This document shows, one piece after another, positions 19,749 to 62,691 of a stretch of 64,000 nucleotides of DNA; position 1 is the stretch's first letter; every line of letters starts with the position of its first letter. The notes beneath the pieces are model-generated. The model ran no database searches. It was not told the origin of the DNA and saw nothing but the letters and a program-made list of their open reading frames with translations. The stretch is from Apoderus coryli (taxonomy: Eukaryota > Arthropoda > Insecta > Coleoptera > Attelabidae), in assembly GCA_911728435.2 (NCBI GenBank), contig OU452199.1:17494860-17558859 (forward strand), written 5' to 3'. The translations under genes and the position numbers were made by a program.

Positions 19749-20416
19749 CTAAACTGGTTTTGTTAATTACTATTTTTTGTACAATTAACAAAATATAAAA
19801 ACCAAAACCAACAATTTTCGCAATTGCACCGTATTGATAAGGTAACAAGCTCATTATTTTCAGAGCAGCAAATACGTTCTATTTTTGTAAAAAAAATATT
19901 TAAGTGTAATATTTTAATGAAATAAAAATCTAAAACCACATCCAAAATGAATTATTTTTTATTTACATCTATATTTAAGTTTTATTGTATCGTAATCGTA
20001 TTCGGATATTGCATTGTGTATCTCCTCTCGAACCCATTCGGCTTTCCTTGCTAAAAATCTGATTGGTGTGATGTAGGCTAACCCTGCAACTTAATGTAAA
20101 TAGAGGCGAGATCACTTCCGATGGAAACATAATACGGGGTGATTTTTTTTAATGCATGCCGGTCTTACTCTCTTACGAATAATATTGCCATTTACTATAT
20201 TTAAACTTTAATCTTATGTGGTACTGCCGCTATCCAAATTTTAATGTTTGACATAGGCAAAAATATATCCTATCATGAAACATATTATGGACATTCAATG
20301 AATGATATATATATATCATTCATTTGGCTTTTCTATATAATATATATAGAATTTATTCAACTACTAGTTGAGTCACTTTAAGTGAATATTTTCCCTTAGC
20401 TTATATATATATATAA
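19749..20416. other. Upstream flank of the secreted-protein gene
   Basis: No gene seen. Mostly AT-rich, with TA-dinucleotide palindromes near 20,310 and 20,407. Confidence 0.4.
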
Positions 20417-20935
20417 TATGTTCAATATATTGGGGATAGGCTAATGTTGTGGTGTAGTGTAAAAAAACTCTTTTTTACTATGCCAAGCTTTCGAAATTTT
20501 TTAATTTCTTCTTCAGGGCTGCAAATTACAAGAACAACAGTTTATTTTTTATACAAAAAGTACAATTCGCAAGTAATATTACCTTTGGTATGTAAAGGTG
20601 AGTTACATTGATGTTAAAACTGACATATTTTTTTATTGTATATAGTTGTATATAATTATAGGAAAACAACCAAAATAATGTTTAAAATGTGAGAATTAAT
20701 AATATTATTAAGCAGAAAACGTGGTGCCCATTCCAAGATCTAATCTACAATTTGATCAAGAGAACGATTTGCAAAAACTTATAGTGATAAGTATCAAATA
20801 TAAAAAGTATAAACGGGCGAGCGTTTGATTTATTTCATAGATGGTAACATGGGCGGACCTATAAATAGTTCTCGCTAATTTTGAAGGAAAAGCTGTCACT
20901 CTTTTCCCCGAATAACCGCGAGATCAATGAGGTGG
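20417..20935 (-). repeat. PLE terminal repeat, left copy
   Basis: Matches 33,912-34,143 in the same direction, from AATATGTTCAATATATTGGGG to CGCGAGATCAATGA. The left copy has about 288 extra bases (20,531-20,818) that the right one lacks. Together the two flank the whole head-to-head PLE, as pseudo-LTRs do in Penelope-like elements. Confidence 0.75.
20480..20523 (-). ncRNA. Hammerhead-like motif in PLE terminal repeat
   Basis: On the minus strand: GCC, core CTGAAGA, a stem GAAATT/AATTTC with AAAA loop, core GAAA, palindromic AGCT, then GGC closing a three-base stem I. The middle base of CTGANGA is free to vary in hammerheads. Such motifs are known in the terminal repeats of Penelope-like elements. 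The same motif lies at 33,980-34,023. Confidence 0.45.
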
Positions 20936-21418
20936 ATATATTAAAATATAATATATTGTGTATTTCTTTGTTCGGCAATCCTAATGTTCCATCAATCCTT
21001 TCTCTGATTTATATAATTAGTCTCACTAAAATAAGATTTCCTTTGTGTGAGCAGACTCCAAAACGGCGTTGGGATCTGTCACTTCCCCCACCATCCCGAA
21101 GCCCCCACTTCTAAACAACGTGAACGGAGACTAATTTGTTTTTTCGTAATGAGTAAACAGGCTGTCACCACTGTTTTCAGTTGTCCTGATAAGTGCAAAG
21201 CAGGCTGCCACTACTGCGTTACAAAAACATTGTATTGATGGATTGATATCCATGAGCCTTCTGACAAAATTTGACTAATCAACGTCCATGTAGACGTTAA
21301 TCCATCAACTGTTGTCAAACAAATCGAGAAACAGGCTCTCACCACTGCTAACGAACTGTGTTAAACCAGAAAACAGGCTCTCACCACTGTTTTCCTATTT
21401 AATTGGTACTGACAAGGG
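20936..21418 (-). repeat. PLE 3' noncoding region with short repeated motif
   Basis: Lies downstream of the PLE reading frame. The motif CAGTGGTGAGAGCCTGTTT recurs about four times on the minus strand with variation (near 21,153, 21,195, 21,330 and 21,370). The first part is shared with 33,810-33,880 behind the plus-strand PLE. Confidence 0.55.
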
Positions 21419-22098
21419 CTAAATTGATCCTTGTGAGTCATCCGGCTCAGAATTGCGTGCATCACCCAATTGGCAAATATATGTGTACATCGCGCTAGTC
21501 GTGTCTATATCTCTTCGTTTGTTTAAACAGTTTTCGTCTCTATTAGTCTCAAACATCTCCAAGAACAGTCTCTTTGTTAAGTTAGGTTCAATGTGTAAGG
21601 CTTTTGTGTTTTCGTAACTTGGAAGGTGTCCAGTGTCCAGATGATGTTCTGACAGGGCACATGATCTCTTATTGAGACGACAATCACTTTTATGTGATGT
21701 TAACCTGTCTCTTAACACTCGAGACGTCTGTCCAATATAAGTTAGATTACAGGACTTGCAGGGAATGCTATATACCACATTCGAAGTCCTCATTGCATCA
21801 TCTCTATCTTTAAGCTTTGAGAAAATATTGCCAACTGTTTTTGTATATTTCTGTGCTACTTTTATGGAATCAAATTTGCTAAAAACTTTTGCTATTTTTT
21901 GTGATACATCCTTTATATACGGAATAGAATAATAAAAGGTTCTTGTTGCCTCACTGTTGTTGTGTGTATTGGTGTGCTCATGTTCGTTATTGACTGAAGA
22001 TCTATTGGTACTAGTGTTGTAAATTAGTTTTCTTAACAGCTGTTTGGGGTACGAATTTTCAATAAGTACATCGAACAAGATTTTTTTATTTTTTTCCA
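21419..22098 (-). pseudogene. PLE polyprotein, C-terminal GIY-YIG nuclease part (minus copy)
   Basis: Reads as the C-terminal ~225 residues of a Penelope-like polyprotein: a linker, then the GIY-YIG endonuclease (VVYSIPCKSCNLTYIGQTSR, followed by RLTSHKSDC and SEHHLDTGH). The GIY-YIG domain cuts DNA for integration. This frame is continuous and nearly identical to the plus-strand copy, but its reverse-transcriptase half lies 9.5 kb away (31,626-32,605) because a DNA transposon inserted between them at 22,099. The start methionine seen in this frame lies inside the transposon end and is accidental. Confidence 0.85.
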
Positions 22099-26635: not shown

Positions 26636-28388
26636 CTAAAAAGAGTAAAAAGTTCTTAAATATTGTCATTAATTCTCAATTCTTAATATAATAATAAATT
26701 ATCATTAATTCTTTAGATCTTCTTTCATCTCCCAAAAGTCTTAAATGTGTGTATAAATTGAAGAAAATTTAATAAAATAAAAATTGTTAAAATAACTACG
26801 AATAATGTTCCATATTTCACCGTTTTGGAAAATTTAACACATTTGTTTTATTAATTAATTGTGGTGAAATATCTATTATTACAGTACCTATATGTACAGG
26901 GTGTATTCTGGTTGATGGTATACACTTTGTTTTGTTGTTTTGGGAAAAGTAACTAAGTACGAATATTTTGAAAATGTAAGTAATTACTTAAGTTGGATTT
27001 TTTCGATATAGTTAATTAGGTAGACAACTATTAAAACGTTTTTTTCTTTATTAACGTTGATAAAGTTCACAAGAATAAATGTATTCTACCACTTCACCCA
27101 AATTACATATTATAGTGACAATATTATTGTATGCTGATAGATTAGGTATTAGTACAGCTAATACACACAATTAGCTGTCGTATTAGGTTGATCTGAATAA
27201 TCACTTGCGTGCGTACTAATGATAATGATTACTATAATATTATATTAGCAGAGCATAGGCTATGTTTTTTATTCCTTATAAAGACAATGATATACCTTGG
27301 TAAAAAGAATAATTTATTTGCTTACCTGCTTCTTATAATAATAATCACAACACACAACACAAAGTTATTAAGTTATTTTATGCTGTTAGATAGTCATAGA
27401 TGAAAGATATTATAATATATATTTAGGTTAGCATTTACACTTATTTTATTACACAATTGAGATAGAGTAATTAATAATTATTGATAATGAAAAACAAAAC
27501 ATAAACCGACGCCATAACAAAACACGATGCTAGCAATGGAATTTGGGCTAGGTTAGACTAAGAAAAAAATTGTACCGCAGCAGTGTTGTCATAGGGAATT
27601 ATCAAATTGTAACATATTTTATTCGACAATTCCAAAATCAAGATTATTACAGACTTTGTTGTCTGATTATTATGCATGAGTTTATTCAGTTGACGATAGT
27701 TTTTTATTGTTTTCTGGAATATATAACGACGACATAGAGATTGCAACAGATGTTTTAATTACATTTAGATATATTGACTTTTTATAAATATAAAGACAAT
27801 AACAAAATATGCGCCATAGCAATTAATATAATAATAGATAATAGGTATATAAATATACGCTATTATTGTTATAGATAGAGAATAGTAGGTATTAAATAAG
27901 CTACCAAAATTGAGTTATGACGACATACATGTTGTATTCACACACACTTCTGGATGTGATTGTATTAATATTCATGTCTTCACCCATTCTATAGTAATTT
28001 TGAAATATATTATGATATAATTCTATACCGTGTCAGAAGTCAGCTGCAATCGGCAACACTGAACTCTGAACTACTCCCAAGCGTCAAGCATAAACTACTA
28101 TACCTACTTACTAGTTGCCAGATTTAGTTCAAATCCGCAGTTTTGTCGCGATTTTCTTCAAAAAATATTCATATATATTTGAGTTTTTTTCTTATTAGTT
28201 ATTTTTTTATTTATTTAGTTATCATGTTATCGGCAAAACCAGGAGCAAATGTATGTTCATGCCACCCCAATTGTGACTCTTTTGATATACTTTGCTATCT
28301 TTTCGTATGGAAAAAATGTAATTAAATTTTGAATACCTATCTGTGCGTTAGTAAAAGTTACTAGGTATATAATTATGTATATAGGTAG

Positions 28389-28428
28389 GTAATATCAAAG
28401 ATTAATGTACATTAATCTTTGGTAATAG
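28389..28428. repeat. Possible P-element excision footprint
   Basis: A 26-bp perfect palindrome (28,396-28,421) consists of CAAAGATTAAT, GTAC and ATTAATCTTTG, that is 11 bases of each P-element tip around four bases. Flanks are GTAATAT and GTAATAG, six of seven alike. Weaker than the scar at 12,157. Confidence 0.45.
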
Positions 28429-28465
28429 TGATGGCTATACCTCGGCAACACTGAGTATTAGCATT

Positions 28466-28637
28466 GTGTTTATTATAATATAGTGTGTCAGCGCTTGGTT
28501 AGTACCATCATCTAACAACAGACGGCGTTATCAACTTCAGTCGTTCATTAATAAATTTCTGGTATATGATGACGCCATCTGTTGTTAGTTGACAGGTACT
28601 ATCCAAGCGCTGACACACTATATTATAATAAACACAC
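28466..28637. repeat. MITE-like palindrome, 172 bp
   Basis: Perfect outer arms of 33 bp (GTGTTTATTATAATATAGTG... and its reverse complement) with further partial pairing (CGCTTGG / CCAAGCG, then GACGGCGT / ACGCCATC) toward a short centre. TATTAG occurs just outside both ends. Confidence 0.65.
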
Positions 28638-29080
28638 TGGTATTAGTAAATGGTCAGCGTTGCCGGTTGTAACATAATAATTATTATTATGATTTTGCAC
28701 TTAACTAAATCTGGTACTAAATTTGTACTGTAAGATGAATCTAATGAATCTGTACTAGGATTTTTTATATACTAAATTGGCCAACAATTGACCTGTTTTC
28801 TTGGTGACGTAACAAATATGTTCTAAAATCTGTGCAGCTATAATAACATTATATTATTATGTTTAAGCATGTTATCGGCAACAGTGGATATGGTAAGAAA
28901 ATCATAACTATTTTGGCAACACACAAAAAACAAAGTAGTAGTTTTCTTTATAAAGACAATGACCTCACCTATCTATATAATTACTGTTTAGGTATATAAT
29001 TTATTTTAATAACTTAAAACGCCGTGTTGTTTTATAAAATAATTTCTTAAAATAAAGAGCTCAAGAAATCTGCATTATTT

Positions 29081-31340
29081 AGGATAACGGAAATGAATGA
29101 AATTTTTTATTGAATCCGTATTGAAACCAATCGTATCGTGGAAATTCTTATTCAGCAATTCTATATTAAACGCAATTGAAATAAGCAGTAAACTAATTCA
29201 AACTGATAAAACCAAATTAATTATTTGATTTAGAATGCCTTATTGAAACCAATAAATTCCAAATAAAGAATTTCTTATTAATCCATATTGAAACCAATTC
29301 GTTTCATGGTAATTTTTATTCAGTACTTCCATATTAAACGCAATTGAAATAAGCAGTTTTATGCCGCATAAAAACTAATTCAAACTGATAAAACCAAATT
29401 AAACATTTGATTTGGAATGCCTTATTGAAACCAACAATTCCCAAATAAAGAATTTCTTATTAATCCATATTGAAACCAATTCGTTTTATGGCAATTTTTA
29501 TTCAGTAATTCCATATTAAACGCAATTGAAATAAGCAGTTTTATACCGCATAAAAACTAATTCAAACTGATAAAACCAAATTAAACCTTTCATTTGGAAT
29601 GCCTTATTGAAACCAATAAATTCCAAATAAGGAATTTCTTATTAATCCATATTGAAACCAATTCGTTTCATGGTAATTTTTATTCAGTACTTCCATATTA
29701 AACGCAATTGAAATAAGCAGTTTTATGCCGCATAAAAACTAATTCAAACTGATAAAACCAAATTAAACATTTGATTTGGAATGCCTTATTGAAACCAACA
29801 ATTCCCAAATAAAGAATTTCTTATTAATCCATATTGAAACCAATTCGTTTTATGGCAATTTTTATTCAGTAATTCCATATTAAACGCAATTGAAATAAGC
29901 AGTTTTATACCGCATAAAAACTAATTCAAACTGATAAAACCAAATTAAACCTTTCATTTGGAATGCCTTATTGAAACCAATAAATTCCAAATAAAGAATT
30001 TCTTATTAATCCATATTGAAACCAATTCGTTTCATGGTAATTTTTATTCAGTACTTCCATATTAAACGCAATTGAAATAAGCAGTTTTATGCCACATAAA
30101 AACTAATTCAAACTGATAAAACCAAATTAAACCTTTCATTTGGAATGCCTTATTGAAACCAATAAATTCCAAATAAGGAATTTCTTATTAATCCATATTG
30201 AAACCAATTCGTTTCATGGTAATTTTTATTCAGTACTTCCATATTAAACGCAATTGAAATAAGCAGTTTTATGCCGCATAAAAACTAATTCAAACTGATA
30301 AAACCAAATTAAACATTTGATTTGGAATACCTTATTGAAACCAATAAATTCCAAATAAAGAATTTCTTATTAATCCATATTGAAACCAATTCGTTTTATG
30401 GCAATTTTTATTCAGTAATTCCATATTAAACGCAATTGAAATAAGCAGTTTTATACCGCATAAAAACTAATTCAAACTGATAAAACCAAATTAAACATTT
30501 GATTTGGAATACCTTATTGAAACCATTAAATTCCAAATAAAGAATTTCTTATTAATCCATATTGAAACCAATTCGTTCCATGGTAATTTTTATTCAGTAC
30601 TTCCATATTAAACGCAATTGAAATAAGCAGTTTTATGCCGCATAAAAACTAATTCAAACTGATAAAACCAAATTAAACATTTGATTTGGAATGCCTTATT
30701 GAAACCAACAATTCCCAAATAAAGAATTTCTTATTAATCCATATTGAAACCAATTCGTTTTATGGCAATTTTTATTCAGTAATTCCATATTAAACGCAAT
30801 TGAAATACGCAGTTTTATACCGCATAAAAACTAATTCAAACTGATAAAACCAAATTAAACATTTGATTTGGAATACCTTATTGAAACCAATAAATTCCAA
30901 ATAAAGAATTTCTTATTAATCCATATTGAAACCAATTCGTTTCATGGTAATTTTTATTCAGTACTTCCATATTAAACGCAATTGAAATAAGCAGTTTTAT
31001 GCCACATAAAAACTAATTCAAACTGATAAAACCAAATTAAACCTTTCATTTGGAATGCCTTACTGAAACCAATAAATTCCAAATAAGGAATTTCTTATTA
31101 ATCCATATTGAAACCAATTCGTTCCATGGTAATTTTTATTCAGTACTTCCATATTAAACGCAATTGAAATAAGCAGTTTTATGCCGCATAAAAACTAATT
31201 CAAACTGATAAAACCAAATTAAACATTTGATTTGGAATGCCTTATTGAAACCAACAATTCCCAAATAAAGAATTTCTTATTAATCCATATTGAAACCAAT
31301 TCGTTTTATGGCAATTTTTATTCAGTAATTCCATATTAAA
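29081..31340. repeat. Satellite array, 182-bp unit, about 12-13 copies
   Basis: The landmark CAGTACTTCC or CAGTAATTCC recurs at 29,321, 29,503, 29,685 and on every 182 bp. Two subtypes (GTTTCATGGTAA with CAGTACTTCC; GTTTTATGGCAA with CAGTAATTCC) mostly alternate, which gives a higher-order unit of about 364 bp in places. The first unit (29,100-29,220) is shortened and most diverged. On the minus strand each unit contains CAATATGGATTAAT. Confidence 0.95.
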
Positions 31341-31591
31341 CACTATTCATTTTAACCTATTAAATCCGTATAAAACCCACTTTGTTTTGAATCTGTAATG
31401 GCATATTAGATCTAATCATATTTAAAACTTATAGAGACCAATACAATTCCATTGATGTGTTTTATATGTATATCCAAATAAACCCAAACCAAATTGAATC
31501 ATATAAGATTACTATTAAAATAACATAGAGCTTGTCAAAGCCAGATTAAAACCTACATTCACTTATAGATACTTATAGATCCAGATCAAGT

Positions 31592-31625
31592 TTTAATATG
31601 ATTCTATACGGTATTTTCAACAGGG
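31592..31625 (-). repeat. Right terminal inverted repeat of the satellite transposon
   Basis: Reverse complement begins CCCTGTTGAAAATACC; the duplicated CA follows at 31,626-31,627. Confidence 0.75.
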
Positions 31626-32605
31626 CAATAAACTGTGGTGACAAAGGTTTTCTATTCGTTTTTTTAATCCCAAAACGGAATTGATTTTTATCTTCTCAGT
31701 GTGGAAAGAATTATAATTTATATATCTTCCAGAATTGGTGGGTTTTACATACCAATCAACGAAAATTTTATTGTCAGGCATTCTAATTAACCTAGTGTCT
31801 AGGAAAGGTACACTTCTATCCTTCTCCTCCTCCATAGTGAACTGAATGTATTCATTGTAGTTGTTGAACACTTCTAGTATTACTTCTTTTTTGTTGTGTG
31901 GTATAGCACAAATTAGATCATCAACATATTTCTTCAGAAAGGGTAAATCAAAATCCAGCAGTGGTAGGACACAGTCCAATAAGTCATCCATGACATATTG
32001 GGCTAAAATCGGTGATAAAGTAGCACCCATAGGTGTACCTAAGATTTGTTTATAAAAATAGTTCTCAAAAGAAAAGTATGTGGAGTCGAAAATGAACTCT
32101 ATTATATTCAAAAAAATTCTTTTTTGGGGATGTTGGTAATCTCTGAAATTAGGTTCCACCTTTTCTCAACGCTACGAAAGACCAGATTTTTGGGGATATT
32201 ACTATATAAAGAAACCACATCAAGGCTCACCAACACATAGTCTTGAGGTAGCTGTTTTTCATTAATATAACTTGCAAATTTAAAGGAATCTGTTGTGAAA
32301 TATGGGTTGTCCTTATTGTAGGCATTGGTCAAAATGTCCGTAATAAATTTTGATAACTTGCTGGTAGGGGAATTGATGGACGAGATGATAGGTCTAAGCG
32401 ATAGGATAGGTTTGTGAATTTTAGGTAGTCCGTAAAATTTAGGTGAAGTTTGTCCATAAATTGTCAGTCTCTTAGCGATCTGTTCGTCTATATAATTATC
32501 TTGTTTTAATTTCGAAACTATTTTGTTGGACTTCTGTTGGAGAGTGGATGTGGGGTCATTTTTTAAAAGTTGATAGTATTTTTTATCTGATATGATGTTT
32601 TTTGA
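31626..32605 (-). pseudogene. PLE reverse transcriptase part (minus copy), frameshifted
   Basis: From about 32,605 downward the frame reads a typical Penelope-like RT: FYGLPKIHKP, LRPIISSINSPTSKLSKFI, VSLDVVSLYSNIP, ILGTPMGATLSPILAQYVMDD and the catalytic KYVDDLIC, then VPFLDTRLIR. A single extra base in an A/T run near 32,110 shifts the frame between IPKKEF and LNIIEFIFD. The frame is then cut after HHSLL by the transposon that ends at 31,625; the GIY-YIG half is at 21,419-22,098. A functional element would join RT and GIY-YIG in one polyprotein. Confidence 0.88.
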
Positions 32606-32652
32606 TAACTGAGTGTGTAAACATCATATCAGATAAAAAATACTATCAACTT
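32567..32652. repeat. Head-to-head junction of the two PLE copies
   Basis: Perfect 32-bp inverted arms (32,567-32,598 and 32,621-32,652) around a 22-bp spacer mark where the minus copy meets the plus copy. Such 5'-to-5' joins are known for Penelope-like insertions. Confidence 0.85.
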
Positions 32653-32657
32653 ACCTA

Positions 32658-33809
32658 GAGTTCATTTTCGACTCCACATACTTTTCTTTTGAGAACTATT
32701 TTTATAAACAAATCTTAGGTACACCTATGGGTGCTACTTTATCACTGATTTTAGCCCAATATGTCATGGATGACTTATTGGACTGTGTCCTACCACTGCT
32801 GGATTTTGATTTACCCTTTCTGAAGAAATATGTTGATGATCTAATTTGTGCTATACCACACAACAAAAAAGAAGTAATACTAGAAGTGTTCAACAACTAC
32901 AATGAATACATTCAGTTCACTATGGAGGAGGAGAAGGATAGAAGTGTACCTTTCCTAGACACTAGGTTAATTAGAATGCCTGACAATAAAATTTTCGTTG
33001 ATTGGTATGTAAAACCCACCAATTCTGGAAGATATATAAATTATAATTCTTTCCACACTGAGAAGATAAAAATCAATTCCGTCTTGGGATTAAAAAAACG
33101 AATAGAAAACCTTTGTCACCACAGTTTATTGGAAAAAAATAAAAAAATCTTGTTCGATGTACTTATTGAAAATTCGTACCCCAAACAGCTGTTAAGAAAA
33201 CTAATTTACAACACTAGTACCAATAGATCTTCAGTCAATAACGAACATGAGCACACCAATACACACAACAACAGTGAGGCAACAAGAACCTTTTATTATT
33301 CTATTCCGTATATAAAGGATGTATCACAAAAAATGGCAAAAGTTTTTAGCAAATTTGATTCCATAAAAGTAGCACAGAAATATACAAAAACAGTTGGCAA
33401 TATTTTCTCAAAGCTTAAAGATAGAGATGATGCAATGAGGACTTCGAATGTGGTATATAGCATTCCCTGCAAGTCCTGTAATCTAACTTATATTGGACAG
33501 ACGTCTCGAGTGTTAAGAGACAGGTTAACATCACATAAAAGTGATTGTCGTCTCAATAAGAGATCATGTGCCCTGTCAGAACATCATCTGGACACTGGAC
33601 ACCTTCCAAGTTACGAAAACACAAAAGCCTTACACATTGAACCTAACTTAACAAAGAGACTGTTCTTGGAGATGTTTGAGACTAATAGAGACGAAAACTG
33701 TTTAAACAAACGAAGAGATATAGACACGACTAACGCGATGTACACATATATTTGCCAATTGGGTGATGCACGCAATTCTGAGCCGGATGACTCACAAGGA
33801 TCAATTTAG
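32658..33809 (+). pseudogene. PLE polyprotein (plus copy), RT N-terminus missing, GIY-YIG intact
   Basis: One open frame runs from before 32,658 to TAG/TAA region at 33,809. It begins inside the RT at EFIFDSTYFSFENY, carries GTPMGATL and the catalytic KYVDDLIC (about 32,826-32,850), then continues without interruption into the GIY-YIG nuclease (YIGQTSR near 33,490; EHHLDTGH near 33,580). Compared with the minus copy about 460 bp of RT coding sequence are missing right after the junction, so fingers motifs are lost and the RT cannot be complete. Otherwise it differs from the minus copy at only a few residues, so the duplication is recent. It provides the empty site that defines the 9.5-kb insertion. 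Confidence 0.85.
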
Positions 33810-33911
33810 CCCTTGTCAGTACCAATTAAATAGGAAAACAGTGGTGAGAGCCTGTTTTCTGGTTTAACACAGTTCGTTAGCAGTATTTTCGTAGCCTACT
33901 GTTTGAATATC

Positions 33912-34143
33912 AAATATGTTCAATATATTGGGGTATAGGCTAATGTTGTGGTGTAGTGTAAAAAAACTCTTTTTTACTATGCCAAGCTTTCGAAATTTTT
34001 TAATTTCTTCTTCAGGGCTGCAAATTACAAGCGAGCGTTTGATTTATTTCATAGATGGTAACATGGGCGGACCTATAAATAGTTCTCGCTAATTTTGAAG
34101 GAAAAGCTGTCACTCTTTTCCCCGAATAGCCGCGAGATCAATG
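33912..34143 (+). repeat. PLE terminal repeat, right copy
   Basis: Direct repeat of 20,417-20,935, lacking 288 internal bases. Includes the hammerhead-like motif on the minus strand at about 33,980-34,023. Confidence 0.75.
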
Positions 34144-34670
34144 ATCAAAGCGACAGGTACTTCAATAATTATAATGCCATGATTATGTTCGAAATAAATG
34201 CTCATAATTAGACCGAGACGAATTTGTCAGTATTTGCCTCGGTCTGGTTCAACTGAATGTAACTGAGGCCGTGCTAAATTAAACATAATCCCTTGGTAGG
34301 TAAACCAGTAATTTTGACCGCTATGCCACAAAATTATTTTGCTTTATTCTATTTACAGACACAAATTTCTTTTGTTATGAATTACGTTTGAAATCATTGG
34401 TGATATCATTAATAAAACACATAAACAAAAGAGTGCTCAATACACTCTGGGGAATCCCGGATGTACCATGAACATTAAAAGACAAACTGGATACGATACG
34501 ATGCTTGAAAAAAAAGTTTTGTCTTGGAGTTGGAGCCCTGGGATTCTTTAAATCTCAAAATTTTACTAATGATATTGGAAGATCATATTATTCAGTTTGA
34601 AATCAAAGATAGTCAACTTAAATACATTGAATATTTACCACTGTTACTACTACTAGGAAGCTTCTGATAA
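34144..34670. other. Noncoding gap between PLE and LINE
   Basis: No feature seen except a short GACCGAGACGAA / GCCTCGGTC inverted repeat near 34,220-34,250. Confidence 0.4.
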
Positions 34671-37437
34671 TTATTATTTTTTTTTTTACTTTATTAAATT
34701 AACGGGATACCCCAATTATATTTACAACAAATTTCTTATAAAGATCATGACAGTACCTAAGACAAAATAAACAAATTCATAATAAATTCAAGATCTGTTA
34801 TGAGTTCTACTCAATCAATCATATTTATATAAGTCTGATAATAAGGCGACCAAATCACTGACGAGTATTCCAGTGAAGAACGAACCAGGGACACATAAAA
34901 CAAACGACAGCTCGGAATCGATAAGTCTCTAGAATGTCGCATCACAAATCCGAATACTTTATGACCATTCTGAGACATTCGGCATATGTGTTCATTACAG
35001 TCAACAGACTCTGAAAAGTGAACACCCAAGTCTTTTATTTTGTCAACATATTTCAACTGATCACCAGCCATCGTGTACTGACTAGGAAATCTTTTCCTCT
35101 TGCGAAAGAAGCTAATAAATGAACACTTACTGATATTGAATTTCAAATTATTATACACAGACCACTGCCACAGCGCATCAACATCGCGCTGCAAATTTTC
35201 AACATCGGCCTCGCACGAAATTCTTCTATAAATCTTCAATTCATCCGCAAATAGATTAGCCATCAAATACTTCAGTACATCACTGATATCGTTGACAGAA
35301 ATATTAAGCAATAATGGGGCACAATGGGACGCCTGAGGGACTCCTGATTCATGACTTTTGTGATTCATGATTTTTACTACCTGTGTACGCCCCCTCAAAA
35401 ATCTTTCCAACCAAGATAAGGCATGGTCAGAAAATCCCATCTTTGCCAACAAAATATCAAAGTTCACCCTATCAAATGCTTTGGCGAAGTCGGTATACAC
35501 CGAATCCACCTGATAACCTCCACTCACAGCATCCAATATATCAAGTTCATAAGAAATCAAATTCGTAACTGTAGATTTTTTTCTACAGAAACCGTGTTGA
35601 CCCTCTTTAATGAGACCTCTGCATTTCCATTCAAGTTGATCGAACAGAAGGCCATCGAATAGCTTCGCTACTGCAGATTGATTACAAACTCCTCTGTAAT
35701 TTGAGATGTCTCCAGAGGCACCAGATTTGTATATAGGTCTCACATAGCTAGTTTTCCAGGCGTCTGGAAATTTCTCTTGATCCAATGACATGCTGTACAG
35801 TCGTCTCTGAAGAGGCACTGCCACAGTATGTATGCAACTCTTAAGAAAGTAATTAGGTATGTTCTCTGGACCAACGGAAGTTTTATTAGGGATTCTAAGG
35901 ATTTTGTCATACACCTCAAATGTGATGTTTCCCGAATTGATACCAGAAAATTCCCCAATATTACACGCAGATCCATCATAAACGCTGGAGAAAAACTGAG
36001 CGAAAAGATTCGAGATGTCGGGACCCCTACCAGCCACCTGATCGTTAAAAAACATTGATCTTGGAAGACCATTGTTATTTCTCTTATTATTAATAAAATG
36101 CCAAAAGTGACGAGGATTGTTGCCAATATTTGTCTCCAAAAGTGCGACAAATGATTTATAACATTCTTTAGACTTGACCTTACATTGTGTTCGTACCTAA
36201 CAAATTCCCAATTCAGTGCCTCATCACCAGTTTCTTGATACATTTTATGCGCCTCCTTCTTTAAACACACTAAGTGCATAAGTTCTGCACTTAAATATTT
36301 GGGGAAACTTGATCTCTTGATGCACCTCAGAGGCACATACACACTGATACATGATTCAGGGCAGAGGAAAATAAGTCAACAGCCTCATTAATATCTCTTC
36401 CCTCAAAGACATCCGCACATACTATCGATGCTAAATAATCATTAATAGCCTCATAGTTTGCTTTCCTAAAATCACGATAAAACTCTTCACACTCGAGAGG
36501 CTCAGCTATACTAGTGAATACAGCAAATATATATGGAGTGTGATGAATACTACCAGGCATCAATAAATCAACCGCCGGTGAGCACTCGAATGCAGGATAA
36601 TGTGAGCAAGTCCAAATAAACGCCGCGACTATTAGGATTGTTGTTATTTTGATACAAATTCAAATGACCAAACTCTTCACATACTCTCTGTCCTGGAGAA
36701 TTTTCAGAACAACGCACACATGCACCTAAATCATCATTAAATCATTCACAATCCGGGATATTGTAATCCCCACAAAGAATTAATTGTTAAAGTTCCTATT
36801 AATGTCTCCAACTTCCGCACAATGTTCCTCGTATATCTGTAAAGGTGAGCCTGGAGGAATATAAATGGCACCGTATATACAATCATCCTGGGGCAATGTT
36901 ACTCTAACAAAGAGATGTTCGACGGCGTTTACCTTAATTTTAACAGGTGTTGACTTCAAACTGCTGGACACTGCAATTAACACACCACCCCCCCTAGACT
37001 TATTGCTAACGATTTCATTTCTGTCCGTTCGATAAATATTGTATCCCTCAAATTTCGATTCTTGACAGGAAATAGAAGCATTCAACCAGGTCTCAACTAA
37101 TATACTCGTAATTATATCATAAGAACACAAGACTCACCGCCTCTGACAATTCAGATAATCTTGAGCGCACGCCACCAACATTTTGAAAATAACAACTTAA
37201 TTTAGCTTTAAATGATTTTTTTTTTTCACCATTTGAAGGATTGACATTATTCATCCTTGGTTTGGAACTCACTACTTTCGGTTCCCCATTAAAGGAGTAC
37301 CTGTCATACACATTAGACTCGCCGTTATTTCTTCTTGTTTTCACTTCATCATATGTTGCTTTTAGTTTCTTACGTTGAAGCGGTGTTAAGTCAGCCGTGA
37401 TAGAACGATCATCTCTATTTAATTTCCGTTTATTCCT
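34671..37437 (-). mobile_element. LINE 1 (non-LTR retrotransposon), degraded
   Basis: Minus strand, from about 37,437 (end of ORF1-like coding sequence) to an A-rich tail with AATAAAG just before 34,690. It carries apurinic endonuclease and RT domains in one series of frames. Frameshifts, stops and a missing C-terminal stretch make it inactive. No clear target duplication was found. Confidence 0.8.
34811..37437 (-). pseudogene. LINE 1 endonuclease and reverse transcriptase remnant
   Basis: In order on the minus strand: an ORF1-type tail or linker (ITADLTPLQRKKLKATYDEV, about 37,420-37,340); endonuclease start YFQNVGGVRSRL; EN core ETWLN, GYNIYRTDRNE and GGGVLIAVSSS; CGDYNIPDCE followed by TGA where W is expected (about 36,745); linker; then RT from 36,139 with FPDAWKTSYVRPIYKSG, TDFAKAFDRV and GVPQASHCAPLL. 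The catalytic FADD motif reads FADE, and the usual GVPQGSxLGPLLF is altered, so the RT is dead even where its frame is open. Frame changes occur near 37,120, 36,330 and 36,140. Family: Jockey/CR1-like insect LINE, judged by motif style only. Confidence 0.82.
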
Positions 37438-39774: not shown

Positions 39775-40550
39775 GATTTTTGTGTCACTGTGTATAAACA
39801 GCGCCATCTCTTCAATGCTGTCCCAACTACGCTGGATATTAAATTTATAAAAAAATTATAAGAAAATGGCGGATATTTGAAGGGAAATTTAAGGTTTTTT
39901 TTATATATGGATATTGTCTAATACAGAAAGTTTTCACGTACAATTTTAATTACAAGTGATTGTTAAATATATAAATTAGGTAATAAAGTAATATTATCAT
40001 TATTAAATATTAGAATCATAGCACAAAATGAGGAAAACGTTGCTGACTTTAAACTCAATTTATTAAGTAATTATTTATTGTTGTAGCCTCAAAATACCTT
40101 ATTACCTAATCCAAACCTTAGTCTTTAAAACCCTATTAAAATTTTTGCTACGAGATACGTATTAGTGGAGATTTCCATCCACAAAAATATATCTGTAAAT
40201 TTGAAAAAGTTACCCATGTTTGAACTCAATTTATGAGTTAACTATTTAATCTTTCCGCTTGAAAATACTTCATTACCTAATCCCATCTTTTGTCTTTAAA
40301 ACCCTATGAAAATTTTTGCTAGCAGATACGTCTTAGTGGCGACTACCATGCGCAAAATTACGCCTGCAAAGCGAAATATGATGATTTTCTAACTCTGTTT
40401 TTGAACTAACTATCCAATATTTCAACTTCAAAATACTTCAATACCTAATCCCATCTTTACTCTTTAACTCCCTATCAAAATTTTTGTTACCAGATACGTA
40501 TTAGTGGAGTCTACCATGCGCAAAAATAGGTCTGCAAACGATTGTATTCA
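39775..40550. repeat. Dispersed repeat with three 170-bp tandem units, copy 1
   Basis: Nearly identical to 52,795-53,636 in the same direction. The phrase AGATACGTATTAGTGG recurs at 40,153, 40,324 and 40,492. The block begins near ACAAAACCATTAGATTTTTG and ends at CGATTG followed by unrelated flanks. Confidence 0.8.
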
Positions 40551-45981: not shown

Positions 45982-48900
45982 CAAAGATTAATCTACACAA
46001 TAGATAGTCAGCGTATATGGGAAAGAAAACAAAAATTGAAACTGTCTCGACACGAGCTACATCTATTAGAAAAACATGTAACCATGGAAATTATGGAAAT
46101 TGTAGATGGTGTTATATGTATTGTGTTGAAATAAAATAATCATATGGGCAATGTTAGACAAGGACGAGTATACTTTCCCCTACGAGGTGGGAGTTTGTTT
46201 TTATATTATAGGTATCATATATGTACTACTGTGCAGCAGTGTTTTTTGTCGGTTAATATAAAATTATATGGTATACGTACACCTATCTACGCAAAGATTA
46301 ATGTGTATGGACGAAAATAAAAGAAATTACTATAATAGTATAAATATACAGGGCTGGTTCATTAAATGTTTTAGACAATAATTTTAAATGACTAAAATAA
46401 TATTATTTTAGTCATTTAATTTTAAATTTCGGATATAAGGATGCATCAAAAAGTTATATTTAAATTAACGAAATTTGGCGTTATAGATAGGACTTCCGCT
46501 TATTATCTGATTCAGTTTTAAGGATCAAACTCAAACAGCAGATTCAACTTGTTAACATTATGAAAAAATAAATCTCAGACTCATACAGGCGTGAAATGCT
46601 ACCCTAACTTTTTTATGCACATTTTTTGCGTGTGTTTCAATTCGGAGATGTAAAATCTAACAAATTATATACGTAATAAATGTATCCTTCTGTGATATTG
46701 ATAGAAAGTCATCGTTATCGCGTATTATCGATTTTAAGAAATGTTAATATTAAAAAGGCTGTGCTTTTTACAAGTTGCTGAAGTAAATAAGGTTTGAAAT
46801 TTCCAGCATGACAATAATTATTTAAAAAAATACGGTTTCGAAATGCAGGATGTAAAAAATTAGAATTTTTAATCTGTTTTTAATGAAAATTTAAATCTAT
46901 TGAGAAACATGGTTCAGGGTTTTTGTGAAATGTATTTTACTCCAAAGATTCTACTCATCGATTATAACCGAATTAATTTACTCAAAAATATCTATACTAG
47001 TAAAATAACACAATTATCACAATTAGGTTCAAATTCTGCAACGCCGAATTGAAAAAAAACTTACAGTCTCCCTAATATTGGTTTTTGTGCAATGATCATA
47101 AAACTTTAAAAAAATAACGATTTATGTAGATTGTATTGTTAACACGTTTCGTAAAAAGCTTTAAAAACCCACCAACAGGGTGTTAAAAGTATCACGACAA
47201 TAACTTTTTTCATGTTTTAACAAGTACAATCGTCTGCTTCAGATTGATCCTTAAAAACTGAATAACAGTTTCTCTATATAAAAAAATAAAACTCGTAAAT
47301 ATCATCCCCAAACATTTAATTTGAATACAATTACATAACACCATATTTGAAAGTAAATAAAAAAAAACAGCATTACCTAGTTTAACAGATTTGCAAATTG
47401 CAAATCAAAGTATCTATGTATACAGGGTGTTGCATAAGTACTTGTACAAACTTTAAAGGGTGATTCTTTGACTAATTTTAAGATACAAATTTCATATGTA
47501 CATTCAAAGTTCAAAAATAATATTATATTTAGGATTATATGCTTGTTCAATAGCATCGCAATTTGGTGCAATTCGGGATACAGGTGTATTGATGACACCA
47601 GAGCTGTCAAAAGAACTAATAAAAAATACGAAAAATAACAAAATACAAATATCATTCAAAAGACAACAATGCACATAATAGTCGGTACCAAGCCAAATAG
47701 GTAGTAGGTAAATATAGATTTATTTTGTTTCGAGCTTGGGCTTGGCACCGACTTATTGTAATCAAAACTACCCACCAAACGGATACATTTAATTTTACGC
47801 AGACATCTAGTGTGAGCAGGCAATATGCCCGGTGAGAGAAAGTTGATAGACGATGGCCGGACGAGAAGTAACAACTGATTATATCCTATTGCCAACACAA
47901 GTATTTTTTTTACTGGCACATTGGAAAAAAAAATTTAAAAAATGTTTCGTTTACGCAACGTTGGGGATTAATGGGTTAAGTACTAAGTGTCAGTTATCAG
48001 TTATAATTTTTTATTTTCCAAGAAAGCGAAACGAGATATTTAAAACGGCATTGCGCCGCCCTCATGTATACCTCCGGGGGCGGCATCGAAAATCGCTACA
48101 CGTCACAAACTTGTAAATGCTTAGAACTACCCCTATGTCAAATTTCTATTTTCTATCTTTTTTGTTTGATACCCAAAGCCCTATTCCTACCGAACTTATT
48201 ATTTACCCGAAGAAACATTAAAAAGAAGTAAAATTTAAGTACCTAAACCTATAAAGTGGAACTTATACCTGAATTTATAACCCATTTTCTGCATCGATCT
48301 TCTTCTTTAGGAAATCGAAAGAAATGTACCTCTCGATTGTTTCTGTAACTGTTGTTACAATTTCGAAAAGCACATTGGTTACGACTTAATTTCGAATTGT
48401 TTCTTTCCATTTTCACAAAACACAAAAATTATTTAGTCACTAACTAGGAAGTTTCTCAAATAAAAAAAAAACACAACACAAAATAATATAATTAGTCTAA
48501 AATTAGAAAAACACAAAATAAGTTAAAAAATATTCACAAAAAAAATAACTACGCAGCCAAAGATTAAATTTAATTTAATATATTAGGTAATTCTCTTCAA
48601 AACAAAATCAGTAGGTATGAAAACAACCATAATATGTATACCTAATATAATATAGGTAGCACTGATAATTTTTTTATTATAGGTATTATAAGATCTACAA
48701 CAATCTTGTTACATCTTTGCCACATTGTCTACGTGAAATATTTAAAATATATGTAATAAATTGAAAAAGTATCTAGTCAATTCTTAAGTGGAGTTATAAT
48801 TTTGACAAAGAATAATGTACATTAATACCTACTTGATTTCGGTATTGGTATAAAAGTCTAATATCCACGAAATAAATTTAATATACCTAATAATCATTAA

Positions 48901-49548
48901 TCCATGCCATACAACATGTTTCAAGACTAGACCAGTCCCATAAACAGTGGCGAGCAATAATTAAATCAAAAGCTTTTAGCTTTTAGATATTTAGATTTTT
49001 TTATATACATCAACAAATTATTACAATGGAGCCAGAAGTATGTTTCTATCTAAAAGCTTTTCATTTAATGATTGTTCGCCACTGATCATGGGACTGGTCT
49101 AGTCTTGAAACATGTATGACATGGATTAAATATTATTATATTAAATTTAATTCATAGAAATAAGGCTTTTATTTCAATACTGTACTTGTAATAAATCACC
49201 CTGTGTGTTTCTTTTACCGACGAATCGGCAACAGCACGACACACACCACATTCGCTTGTTTTTTTTTCTACCCTCCCTACGTATCCCCTCCAGATTAATA
49301 CAGAATTTCATCAATCTCTCTCTCTGACAATACAGCATTGTCGGTGCATAACTGTTGCAAATGATGTAAATAATTGTTATACGTTGCGTTTTGTTTCTGA
49401 TATTAATAAACTACAAAACGGTTTCTGGCTGTGACAATACTGCTCTATGCTTTACACGCTAGTCTACGCCACGTAGTGGCTGGCATACTTAGAGATGTTC
49501 TCATTTTAATGCATTGGGCTGACTATCTATTGTGTAGATTAATCTTTG
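45982..49548 (-). mobile_element. Internally deleted P element (3.6 kb)
   Basis: Reverse-complement copy of the 12-kb element with the same 31-bp ends, flanked by the 7-bp duplication ACTGTAA (45,975-45,981 and 49,549-49,555). It keeps the equivalents of 4,153-5,803 and 14,205-16,121 and lacks 5,804-14,204, so the transposase exon 2 is gone and only the THAP exon 1 remains (about 48,411-48,270). The deletion joint at 47,899-47,901 shows 3-bp microhomology (CTT). The joint lies inside piggyBac sequence on one side, which dates the deletion after the piggyBac insertion. It must be mobilised in trans. Open frames in it are noncoding copies. Confidence 0.9.
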
Positions 49549-52794: not shown

Positions 52795-53636
52795 AACAAA
52801 ACCATTAGATTTTTGTCTTGCTGTGTATAAATTTAAAAAAAAGTGAACTATAAGCGGCGCCCATAGCGGCATCTCTTCAATGCTGTCCCAACTACGAACA
52901 ATTTGTTCGGTGCCTAAATTTATAAAAAAATTATAAGAAAATGGCGGATATTTGAAGGGAAATATGAGGGATTTTTTTATATATGGATATTGTCTAATAC
53001 AGAAAGTTTTCACGTACAATTTTAATTACAAGTGATTGCTAAATATATAAATTAGGTAATAAAATAATATTATCATTATTAAATATTAGAATTATAGCAC
53101 AAAATGAGGAAAAAGTTGCTGACTTTGAACTCAATTTATTAAGTAATTATTTATTGTTGTAGCCTGAAAATACCTTATTACCTAATCCAAACCTTAGTCT
53201 TTAAAATCCTATTAAAATTTTTGCTACCAGATACGTATTAGTGGAGATTTCCATCCACAAAAATATATCTGTAAATTTGAAAAAATTACCCATGTTTGAA
53301 CTCAATTTATGAGTTAACTATTTAATCTTTCCGCTTGAAAATACTTCATTACCTAATCCCATCTTTTGTCTTTAAAAATGAAAATTTTTGCTAGCAGATA
53401 CGTCTTAGTGGCGACTACCATGCGCAAAATTATGCCTGCAAAGCGAAATATGATGATTTTTTAACTCTGTTTTTGGACTAACTATCCAATATTTCAACTT
53501 CAAAATACTTCAATACCTAGTCCCATCTTTACTCTTTAACTCCCTATCAAAATTTTTGCTACCAGATACGTATTAGTGGAGTCTACCATGCGCAAAAATA
53601 GGTCTGCAAACGATTGAATTCAAACGCCCCTCTTAA
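52795..53636. repeat. Dispersed repeat with three 170-bp tandem units, copy 2
   Basis: Nearly identical direct copy of 39,775-40,550; the AGATACG landmark recurs at 53,229, 53,396 and 53,564. It has an extra ~45 bp near 52,830-52,860. Confidence 0.8.
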
Positions 53637-58773: not shown

Positions 58774-59224
58774 ATAAAAAATGATTCGAGTGTTCTTGAG
58801 GATGCAATTGATTCAGTGTTTCATATGTCTGATACATTGGTTTTGTGTGGGGAGTTAAATATAACAAAGGTGCCGAATATTTGAGTAAGTTGTTTGAATG
58901 TTATAACTTTATTCAGATTATCAACCAATCTACTCGCATAACTTCATCAACTGAGACTTTGCTGGATGTTATTGTAGTCTCCGATTCGGAGGTTGTCACT
59001 AACCCTACAGTAACAGATCTTCCATCTATCTCGGATCATAGTTTATTTTCTTGCAATTTAAATAAAATTAAAAAAACTCCAATAAATAGAGTAACTACAT
59101 ACAGGGACTTCAATAATTTCAACTCAATCTAATTTAAATACTTGTTTTCTATGATCAACTGAAACTCCATCTTTCATATGCAGGATGGTAATGACATGGT
59201 TTCCTTTTTAACTGAAAATTTATT

Positions 59225-59320
59225 CAAATAAAAGAAAACAAACAAGAACTTTCAATGTCAACTCCTTTTTTTTTTTTGTGGAGTTGACTTTGAAAGTTTT
59301 TGTTTGTTTTCTTTTATTTG
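59225..59320. repeat. 96-bp inverted duplication inside LINE 3
   Basis: Arms of about 41 bp (CAAATAAAAGAAAACAAACA... at 59,225-59,265 and its near-perfect reverse complement at 59,280-59,320) around a T-run. It interrupts the coding region and looks like a templated hairpin copy. Confidence 0.75.
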
Positions 59321-60316
59321 AAACTGACAGTCCACTTTGATGATGGATCATTTATTTCGTTTGAAAATTTATTGCAGATATTTGATCAGTGTTGTCCATA
59401 TATGACTGTTAGAGTCACAAAACCATCGGCAGCTTGGTTGACTTATAATATTAAATTAATGATTAGGGCTAGGGATGCAGCACTAAGTAAATTTAAGAAA
59501 TCAAAATCTGAAGCTCATTAGAACTTCTTTAAAAACATAATAAATGAGGTAAATTATGCCATAAAACGGGAAAAAAATTCCATATGGAATTTATACTAAA
59601 CCAAAAAAATACTAAAACAACTTGAAATACTCTGAAATCTATGAATATTATACACAACAAAAGAAATGGTGGCAGCTTGCCTCAGAAATTGTTGGATCTG
59701 GAAAATATAAACAAGCACTTTACTGATCAGGCAGTTTTGCAGAAAACCGAGGCTCAACTGAGATTGTTGGATAAATATAATGACCGTTTTCAACAGGACT
59801 ATCACTTTGAGTTCAGTGCTGTGGATCGGATTCAGGTTGCGCGGTACTTGAATTCTATAAAAACAAGTGCTGTCGGACCTGATTTGATTAGCATGAGAAT
59901 GTTACGGGTGGTTAGTTTTTACCTAATTGATCATCTGACGCATATCATCAATTGCTCACTCATGAACTCTACATTTCCTGAAGGATGGAAACAGGCTAAT
60001 GTGATTCCACTAGCAAAAATTTAAGAACCTACCGAACTGAAACATTTGAGACCAATTGTGTCCTGAGTAGTGGTTTACTGAAACCGAATCAATCTGGGTT
60101 CAGACAGGGGTTTGGTATGGCAACAATCTTGGCACATATTATGGAGGATATTCTAAAAGAGACAGATAATGGAAAAGTCACTGCGTTGGTACTTCTTGAT
60201 TACTCGAAGGCCTTCGACTGTATGTAACCGAATATTCCATGTAGTAAGCTTTATTATTATAATTTTTCGAACAGAGCTGTTAATATGATTAGAAGCTATT
60301 TGTCCGACCGCCGGCA

Positions 60317-60906
60317 GCAGGTAGTTTATAAAAATGTATATTCGGACTACTCAGCTATATAAATGGGCGTCCCTCAGGGTTCGGTTCTTGGACCTTTGCT
60401 CTTTTCGATATATATTTCGGACTTTCATACAGTTATCGAGAATTACCACCTAGGGCATTATGCCGATGCTACCCAGACTTATATCTATTTTGAGGCAGAT
60501 GAGAGTAATGTGGCTCAGGATTTATTGAACGCCGATCTGGAGCATCTTGTACAATTTTCATTGGCACACAATTTAAAGCTGAATACCAGTAAGTCCATCG
60601 GTATGTTGTATGCAGGTAGTTTATAAAAATGTATATTCGGACTACTCAGCTATATAAATGGGCGTCCCTCAGGGTTCGGTTCTTGGACCTTTGCTCTTTT
60701 CGATATATATTTCGGACTTTCATACAGTTATCGAGAATTACCACCTAGGGCATTATGCCGATGCTACCCAGACTTATATCTATTTTGAGGCAGATGAGAG
60801 TAATGTGGCTCAGGATTTATTGAACGCCGATCTGGAGCATCTTGTACAATTTTCATTGGCACACAATTTAAAGCTGAATACCAGTAAGTCCATCGGTATG
60901 TTGTTC
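60317..60906 (+). repeat. 295-bp tandem duplication in LINE 3
   Basis: 60,317-60,611 and 60,612-60,906 appear identical. The unit is not a multiple of three, so it shifts the frame. Identity of the halves implies a recent event. Confidence 0.88.
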
Positions 60907-62058
60907 GGTCCAAAGGCAAAGAGAGAGGCTGTGAGTAGCAGATTCGAATTTCACCTTGGCGGAGAAATAATTTCTAGAGTGAGGCGAGGAACCTTGGTCT
61001 TTGGATGGATAAGGGTCTGCGATTCACAAGTCATGTCAACCGGCTCTTTAGGGCCAGTTATCCGATTTTAAAATATTTTTTTCCTCCCCGTCATACTATT
61101 AATACCAAAACTAAACTTAGCATTTGTGAAACGTTGATTGTCTCTAGGGTCTCATATTGTGACACTGTGTACGGGCCGACCTTGCTTAAGTTTGTTACGG
61201 ATCGGTTGCAAAGTATTCATAATTCATGTTTTCGTTTTGCCTATTGCATTCGAAAATTCGAACATATTAGCCATAAAATTGCCGAAACTTGTCCGTTTCA
61301 TGCTTGAGAAGATGAGGCAAATTCATATCATGGGGTTAACACCTAAAATTCTAACCACTGGGCCCATTTATTTATTCAACAAATTTAAGGAATTCGCAAA
61401 CGTTACTGAGAGAAACAGAAAGCAGGGACCAAGCTTGTTATCCCAAGGCATGTTTCAAATATGTATAAACGTAGATTCGTTTATGCAGCTTGCAAATATT
61501 ATAATGCACTGCCCGAGTATCTGAAAAATATTTCATTATTGAATTTAAAAAAAAAGACTGAAGTTGTACTATAGTCAGATTAACTGAGGGCTAAAAGTAT
61601 GACGATCTGTATTGCTCTTGACTTGGATTCATCTGGCTTCATTATTGATTCATTTTAAATAAATGTTCTGTACGTAGAGAGTAATATAGGTAATAGGTAA
61701 GTTGAAAATCGTCGATATATTTATGTAGGTAGATTATATGTGTAATTGTAAGAGGCTTATTTTGTTGTATGGCTGTGTATGAGAATGATTTGTATGGTTA
61801 GGTAGAATATCGCTCATAGAGCGAATCTCGCCATTTCAATGAATTGTTTTTCGTGCTATATTTTGTTATTGTTAATTCATTGAATAAACTCATTATTATG
61901 ATTATGATTATGATTATTATAAAAAATGATTCGACACAGTGGTGGAAGGCAAAACCCATAAATAATATCTCAAAAAATAATCATCATTGTTTTGAAATGG
62001 GCTTGTTTAACAAAACAAGACTTAAAATCCGAGAGTTTGTCTGTCAACCACTATACTT

Positions 62059-62102
62059 TCACCAGACGGCCGTTTTGTCGATCCACGACTCATCAGTGGT
62101 GA
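62059..62102 (-). ncRNA. Hammerhead ribozyme, core G mutated
   Basis: Same ribozyme in the other half, read on the minus strand, with identical stems and CTGATGA (62,096-62,090). The GAAA box reads AAAA: the change at 62,076 removes the catalytic G12. Probably inactive. Confidence 0.8.
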
Positions 62103-62411
62103 TCAGTCAGTAGTTGACAGCCAAACTCTCGTAAATAATGTGGTATATACCCCACACGGTACAGAGATGTAAAAGGATGTGTTTGGCGACATCTAGTTTT
62201 ACCGTTGGTAGTACGCCGAGTGAACAACAGTTCCTATATCGGCTGCCTGGGAGGTCTCTGACCCCATAAAGCAACTACCAACACATAGACGCGCCGATAC
62301 TCCCTTAAGCGGGATCGCATATATACACGGTACACATCCTTTTACATCTCTGTACCGTGTGGGGTATATACCACATTATTTACGAGAGTTTGGCTGTCAA
62401 CTACTGACCGA

Positions 62412-62455
62412 TCACCACTGATGAGTCGTGGATCGACGAAACGGCCGTCTGGTGA
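62412..62455 (+). ncRNA. Hammerhead ribozyme, consensus core
   Basis: Stem I TCACCA (62,412-62,417) pairs with TGGTGA (62,450-62,455). Core CTGATGA 62,418-62,424. Stem II GTCG/CGAC with loop TGGAT. Core GAAA 62,438-62,441. Stem III is the self-complementary ACGGCCGT (62,441-62,448), short, as in ribozymes that work as dimers or in circular repeats. Cleavage is expected after the C of GTC at 62,449. An outer 19-bp helix (62,383-62,401 with 62,466-62,484, one mismatch) extends stem I. All conserved core bases are present. Confidence 0.85.
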
Positions 62456-62691
62456 ATGTATAATGGTTGACAGACAAACTCTCGGATTTTAAGTCTTGTT
62501 TTGTTAAACAAGCCCATTTCAAATATATGCGATCCCGCTTAAGGGAGTATCGGCGCGTCTATGTGTTGGTAGTTGCTTTATGGGGTCAGAGACCTCCCAG
62601 GCAGCCGATATAGGAACTGTTGTTCACTCGGCGTACTACCAACGGTAAAACTAGATGTCGCCAAACACATCCTTTTACATCATTGTTTTGA

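Follow-up and report, generated by a model that had tools for sequence, protein, structure and literature searches.

How do two copies of a small ribozyme-bearing repeat come to lie back to back in a genome, each opened at a different point and both enclosed by one target-site duplication? Such a locus is present near the end of a 64,000-nucleotide stretch of the genome of the beetle Apoderus coryli (the whole stretch analyzed, hereafter called the window). A previous sequence-only reading described it as a retrozyme-like element inserted as an inverted, circularly permuted dimer, and proposed that a circular RNA had been reverse transcribed twice, with a strand switch, into a single target. 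We examined the anatomy of the insert, mapped other copies of the family throughout the assembly, and compared their organization with that of a Penelope-like element of the same genome. The positions of the features discussed are collected in Table 1.

Table 1. Positions of the retrozyme insert, its parts, and the Penelope-like element in the window
Feature	Position	Strand	Remarks
Penelope-like element, minus arm, outer part	20402..22098	-	GIY-YIG region and 3' end
Insert splitting the minus Penelope arm	22099-31625		9.5 kb
Penelope-like element, minus arm, inner part	31626..32623	-	Reverse transcriptase
Snapback palindrome at the joint of the two Penelope arms	32567..32652		Stem of about 34 bp, loop of 18 nt, by eye
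Penelope-like element, plus arm	32637..33884	+	RT and GIY-YIG
Retrozyme insert	61982-62691		333-nt hammerhead monomer in two inverted, circularly permuted copies, flanked by 14-bp target duplications
Left target-site duplication, CATCATTGTTTTGA	61982..61995		Last 5 nt overlap with the circle
Left arm, antisense copy of the 333-nt circle	61991..62324	-	334 nt, 1.00 lap
Left hammerhead copy	62059..62102	-	G-to-A at window 62076 in the GAAA core strand; position hand-mapped from the right copy
Filler ACACGGT between the arms	62325..62331	.	7 nt
Right arm, sense copy of the circle	62332..62681	+	350 nt = 333 + 17, 1.05 laps
Priming site P1 inside the right arm	62341..62352	+	Circle index 9-20
Type I hammerhead, right copy	62412..62455	+	Predicted cut after 62449
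Priming site P2 inside the right arm	62518..62528	+	Circle index 186-196
Right target-site duplication, CATCATTGTTTTGA	62678..62691		First 4 nt overlap with the circle

The insert and its ribozymes

The 14-bp direct repeat previously noted at the flanks of the insert was borne out on both sides (61982-61995 and 62678-62691), and the two monomer copies that it encloses are indeed in opposite orientation, with a monomer of 333 nt rather than the approximately 335 first estimated. The arrangement described for them, A-B on the left and the inverse of B-A on the right, was recovered as well: both derive from one circle, opened at a different point in each (98.8% identity, 4 mismatches), and the B-to-A joint is present undamaged in the right copy. 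In circle coordinates, where index 0 is window position 62332, the outer 3' end of the left arm falls in site P2 (index 191) and its inner end adjoins its own start, while the outer 3' end of the right arm falls in site P1 (index 16). Overlaps of the target duplication with the circle as long as these (5 and 4 nt) have a chance probability of about 6e-6 in simulations; across the family the overlap is short on average. Comparison of the outer termini of the insert revealed no inverted repeats. The arms are made up of the repeated 333-nt unit and offer no space for an open reading frame encoding RT and GIY-YIG domains. Between the arms, the filler together with 62332-62334 forms a 10-bp inverted repeat with 62351-62360, 16 nt further on (by eye), as if a cDNA end had snapped back. 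Insertion of one retrozyme into another was considered and rejected: an inner duplication was not seen, and the sole duplication lies outside both arms.

Each copy had been credited with a hammerhead ribozyme, a claim that holds for one of the two. The comparison with hammerhead models that had been suggested found a type I hammerhead in the right copy (RF00163, 33.8 bits, E 1.5e-5), marginally under the Rfam cut-off of 34; an Rfam scan of the whole window at the gathering cut-off listed no family, hammerhead included. For the left copy the E-value scan reported no match. The G that is changed in the GAAA strand of its core is presumably the catalytic G12, and this hammerhead is predicted to be probably inactive. 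Both arms of the insert extend through the predicted ribozyme cut site. Another copy of the family (L082) carries a hammerhead of 34.4 bits, above the cut-off. A hammerhead pattern search of viral_contigs and genome_contigs gave no matches.

Several other repeats of the window were inspected. The palindrome at 13861-14142 was considered as a second retrozyme and rejected, being built into a larger young transposon; the best 40 of 1690 genomic candidates for this element are all 100% identical over 321 bp, supposed duplications included. Each arm of this palindrome contains a hammerhead-like stretch, the left one 88% identical to the retrozyme ribozyme over 50 nt, and neither stretch gave an Rfam hammerhead match. 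A diverged relative of the same element (L081) has two ribozymes 96-98% identical to that of the retrozyme, one of which passes the Rfam cut-off with 37.4 bits; by eye, it has downstream sequence in common with the 13861-14142 element. Two similar arrays with units of about 165 bp (2.6-2.9 copies each) are located at 40048-40538 and 53124-53610 within related larger repeats, and a loose scan for hammerhead motifs found no match in them. A 100-nt hairpin at 59223-59322, whose matches to microRNA models are all below cut-off, is perhaps a MITE. An imperfect palindrome of 339 bp (4522-4860) lies inside a repeat that recurs at 48842-49180. Finally, a 295-bp sequence is present twice in tandem at 60317-60904, within an RT region; the copies are almost indistinguishable, which suggests either a very recent duplication or an assembly artefact.

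Layout, ends and laps of the copies in the genome

A genome search for further copies of the monomer, which the sequence-only reading had called for, was carried out on the assembly from which the window is taken (428,062,225 bases in 129 contigs), and 50 independent copies were mapped onto the circle (37 + 10 + 3). The 333-nt unit is multi-copy, with 1414 candidate places in the genome, the best 40 of which were scored. The first set, obtained with the full element as query, consists of these best 40 of 1414, the window locus among them, minus three segmental duplicates that have the same target duplication (L039, L043 and L052); its 37 loci are ranked by similarity to a head-to-head query, which introduces a selection bias. 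A second, layout-independent set was derived from a 101-nt query that is blind to layout but favours young copies (100% matches); it yielded 24 further loci, of which the first 10 were mapped. The two candidate lists are the best 40 of 1414 and the best 40 of 1326. Three older copies, 80-91% identical in their main segments, make up the third set; they come from a hammerhead family search with four matches, L081 being left out as another kind of element.

Among the 50 mapped loci, 39 are head-to-head, always with the antisense arm on the left and the sense arm on the right, 11 have one arm, and none is tail-to-tail. Head-to-head and one-arm loci number 30 and 7 in the first set, 7 and 3 in the layout-independent set, and 2 and 1 among the older copies. 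Back-to-back insertion is the usual mode among the copies examined, and no freak event.

The outer ends, which correspond to the 3' side of the RNA, are concentrated at two sites: 44 of 89 lie at P1 (index 9-20), 41 at P2 (index 186-196) and 4 elsewhere. Moreover, the two sites are used together, one arm each, in 34 of the 35 head-to-head loci where both ends could be classed (27 of 28 in the first set, with a chance probability of 1e-7). The 10 layout-independent loci comprise six P1/P2 pairs, a seventh head-to-head locus with P2 and a left end elsewhere (L088), and three with one arm. The sole P2/P2 locus, L069, is without a convincing duplication. As judged by eye, two one-arm loci (L055 and L062) contain stretches of 6-13 nt that resemble stubs of a second arm at P2, and a third (L049) has a short antisense stretch from P1, which would make it P1/P1, without duplication. 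In the predicted fold of the circle, P1 is at a small hairpin and near P2; about 10% of comparable position pairs are equally close, and the proximity of the two sites in this model is suggestive at most.

Target sites were examined through their duplications. Credible duplications of at least 10 bp flank 28 of the 37 first-set loci, 24 of them being 12-14 bp long; seven loci have none of at least 10 bp, and two dubious cases were set aside (L063, in an AT repeat, and L068, inside the element). In the layout-independent set, 7 of 10 loci have a duplication of at least 9 bp. The dinucleotide TT is found at +2/+3 after the top-strand nick in 11 of 28 cases (P 0.002) and after the bottom-strand nick in 16 of 28 (P 4e-7), for a background of 15% in the flanks. 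As this tendency follows both nicks, the two target strands seem to be cut with a similar preference, TT being stronger on the bottom side. The overlap of the target with the RNA averages 1.7 nt at P1 and 2.7 nt at P2, which rules out microhomology as the main determinant of priming.

The arms themselves are very diverse in length. In the 24 simple loci of the first set, the 48 arms range from 71 to 2254 nt, the longest corresponding to 6.77 laps of the circle; 39 arms reach at least one lap, 11 at least two and 4 at least three. The first set favours long arms, and only 4 of 17 arms of the layout-independent subset reach one lap. Inner ends are found at positions all over the circle, and a single one of the 48 is within 3 nt of the ribozyme cut, so that cDNAs do not, as a rule, run off the end of a cleaved linear RNA. 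At the inner junctions, 15 of the 24 loci have an overlap of 1-7 nt, and in the rest the arms abut or are separated by fillers of up to 23 nt. The junction of L058 (1480-1634) is made of several short alternating segments, as if cDNA ends had switched template repeatedly.

Sequence variants within the laps give information on the template. Where two or more laps of one arm have a variant fixed, every lap of the other arm carries it too in 45 of 48 cases; it is absent in two cases and mixed in one. Properly matched arms have 54 variants in common and differ at 55 positions, compared to a mean of 5.8 shared variants, and a maximum of 17, when arms are paired with those of other loci (1000 shuffles, 25 loci). 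Most differences within loci are changes in a single copy (168 single, 66 fixed, 2 arm-specific and 16 of other kinds), both arm-specific variants belonging to one locus (L034). Because variants are common to both arms, we infer that one monomeric template served for all laps of both, and this template was probably a circular RNA. A circle would be the simplest template consistent with the laps and the shared variants; similarity among laps could also result from gene conversion, or from a multimeric transcript of a homogeneous array of recent origin.

Probable two-primer insertion of an RNA circle

The window also contains a Penelope-like element, a head-to-head pair with a hairpin at its junction, of the same kind as the fold-back of the retrozyme filler (by eye). 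A hammerhead search of 31000-35000, the region of the junction between the Penelope arms, found none. The protein has its best-scoring relatives at about 55% identity; other relatives, at 33-50% identity, are from insects, mostly the beetles Diabrotica and Coccinella, and also mosquitoes and a longhorn beetle. The 9.5-kb insert in the minus arm has ends that resemble inverted repeats (CCCTGTTGAAAAT..., by eye) and two tandem arrays, of 110 bp (22221-23781) and 182 bp (29190-31341). Behind the plus arm, 33907-34144 repeats in direct orientation the terminal part of the left Penelope arm (20409-20532 plus 20817-20930, split there by 284 bp), possibly the start of another, truncated insert.

Genome searches were made with the 3' part of the Penelope-like element (best 40 of 154 and best 40 of 901 candidates). 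A first tally gave 24 clusters, defined by gaps below 13 kb: in 16 the minus arm precedes the plus arm, in none is the order reversed, seven have one orientation and one is mixed. For the tally of ends, five short matches (63-82 bases) were left out, and the other 45 of 50 fall into 23 clusters. According to the match coordinates, the 45 arms have two alternative end positions that differ by 7 nt: 26 are short, 18 are long, and one is the query. Each of the 17 clusters that contain both orientations is head-to-head, and of its two outermost ends one is short and one long. Thirteen of these are simple pairs and four have extra inner arms, all short-ended; six further clusters are single. The 7-nt difference falls in TATATATA, and a target preference could mimic two ends at the resolution of match coordinates. 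Since a Penelope element of the same genome has the same layout with two end positions, its machinery is likely to be the mover of the retrozyme. The Penelope protein of Anolis, as described in PMC11167929, cleaves and extends both strands, and its reverse transcription begins at two adjacent internal sites.

Our preferred reading, to which we give a probability of about 0.8, is that one RNA circle is inserted by two-primer, rolling-circle reverse transcription. The 333-nt noncoding hammerhead RNA would circularise, and an endonuclease would cut the two strands of an AT-rich target at staggered positions, so that 3' overhangs of about 12-14 nt are left. Both overhangs would then prime reverse transcription on one RNA circle, one at P1 and the other at P2, and rolling-circle synthesis would proceed for a fraction of a lap to several laps. 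The point where the two cDNAs come together would vary, and their ends would be joined through microhomology or following a short snapback. The product would be an insert of two inverted, circularly permuted arms, head-to-head and flanked by target duplications, and the enzyme would most likely be a Penelope-like RT/GIY-YIG protein. The genomic copies can be regarded as recorded reactions, with two fixed start sites, one per target strand and per arm, one template, multiple laps, target duplications and overlaps at the junctions; from these we infer that the template was an RNA circle and not a homogeneous multimer of another kind, with the Penelope protein as the actor. The earlier proposal that a circular RNA was reverse transcribed twice into one target is supported in this respect, but the strand switch that it invoked gives way in our model to priming by two primers on opposite target strands, at two fixed sites of the circle (P1/P2 in 34 of 35 loci).

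It is conceivable, as a tentative extension to which we would give well under even odds, that a symmetric protein dimer grips a closed RNA circle at two sites and cuts both strands, in a mode common to Penelope elements and animal retrozymes for which we came across no description in open-licence papers. Each protomer would feed one cut 3' end into its own site, and two rolling-circle cDNAs would be copied from the same circle. If this were true, Penelope elements too would go through RNA circles made by hammerheads, and this would account at once for pseudo-LTR tandems, inverted repeats and a tail restricted to one end.

The main rival to the two-primer model, which we consider unlikely, is twin priming of the LINE type, where a LINE protein would nick the target, both strands would prime on the RNA, and inversions would be a side reaction. 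Duplications of 12-14 bp and head-to-head inversions fit such a process, given a median of 13 bp for L1 duplications, but inversions are reported in 18-22% of human L1 and 0.02% of germline Alu insertions (PMC12016303), compared to 39 of 50 retrozyme loci and 7 of 10 in the layout-independent subset. The window does have RT domains in LINE-like frames, their identity as LINEs being an interpretation, but retrozyme arms begin at two fixed sites, one each, and the same anatomy is found in the Penelope element of this genome. LINE enzymes have a nick preference that concerns mainly the first strand, and the TT tendency common to both nicks may argue against them.

A rather improbable variant leaves the two-primer mechanism otherwise unchanged and takes a linear multimer, that is, an uncleaved array transcript, as the template. 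A long multimer would also yield arms of several laps, and a young array is homogeneous, but the variants present in all laps (45/48) would demand a nearly perfect multimer each time, and inner ends show no accumulation at the ribozyme cut (1/48). Six arms stop shortly after completing one lap, at 334-353 nt, and none at 313-333, a weak argument in the same direction; abundant RNA circles are, moreover, the form in which animal retrozymes are known (PMC7229834). A double-strand break that captured extrachromosomal DNA, as circles or fragments, would account for the overlap of at least 1 nt at 15 of 24 junctions, but this is very improbable, as it leaves the fixed outer ends, the constant orientation, the P1/P2 pairing (34/35) and the regular duplications unexplained. 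As for a foldback or MITE-like DNA transposon with a palindromic structure, which inverted repeats plus target duplications might evoke and which the sequence-only reading had named as its own refutation, it is ruled out by the outer termini without inverted repeats and by permutations, arm lengths and inner junctions that vary from locus to locus among the 24 simple two-arm loci examined.

Comparison with known mobile elements

By its ribozyme, unit size, copy number and duplications, the window insert is classed, on sequence grounds, as an element of the animal retrozyme kind, which upholds its first identification as retrozyme-like. Like the animal non-LTR retrozymes described in PMC7229834, it is a small noncoding repeat with a type I hammerhead (333 nt, for RNAs of about 170-400 nt), multi-copy, with tandem laps and target duplications of more than 4 bp; its unit also falls within the range of about 150-450 bp used to recognize animal retrozymes. 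Unlike them, as they are described there, it is head-to-head in 39 of 50 loci rather than arranged in tandem, and has fixed sites P1 and P2, whereas that account is without fixed priming sites or an identified enzyme. Tandem arrangement is given in this source as a descriptive feature rather than a stated requirement, and inverted inserts were not found in its main text. Among open-licence papers, we found no description of a head-to-head insertion layout for retrozymes, nor of two-sided rolling-circle target-primed reverse transcription. The earlier remark that inverted dimers depart from the described tandem retrozymes therefore stands for retrozymes, but such a layout is known for Penelope elements (PMC3846280). 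Plant LTR retrozymes are similar in that their hammerhead RNAs are proposed to spread via circular RNA (PMC4918200), and different in having LTRs, a primer binding site, 4-bp duplications and type III ribozymes (PMC7229834).

A parallel also exists with LINE-1 twin priming, where two target strands prime on one RNA to give a 5' inversion with duplications; as presented in PMC12016303, these are a minority of insertions, with one cDNA started at the poly(A) and one internally, unlike the present family, where they make up most of the copies examined and arms have two fixed start sites and multiple laps.

In layout, the family resembles Penelope-like elements, for which head-to-head inverted arms, junction palindromes and target duplications are described (PMC3846280), and which have two end or start sites, the Anolis protein extending both strands from two internal sites of the RNA (PMC11167929). 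One end of each kind was found in 34 of 35 retrozyme loci and, by match coordinates, in 17 of 17 two-orientation Penelope clusters of this genome. Unlike Penelope-like elements, which code for an RT and a GIY-YIG endonuclease, the retrozyme encodes nothing. In rotifers, inverted Penelope repeats are most often head-to-head, with palindromes and an optional tail on one of them; they are ascribed to self-priming, which is thought to need an antisense template, and their origin is presented as an unsettled question (PMC3846280). Our model differs from this account, in that two target strands would prime on one sense template. The mover of animal hammerhead retrozymes is likewise left open in PMC7229834, which calls Penelope elements a strong candidate. 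The two questions, that of the retrozyme mover and that of Penelope inversions, are thus brought into one testable model with a defined substrate: the RNA, P1, P2 and the target tendency. The anatomy common to retrozyme and Penelope element points to the long-sought machine that moves RNA circles in animals.
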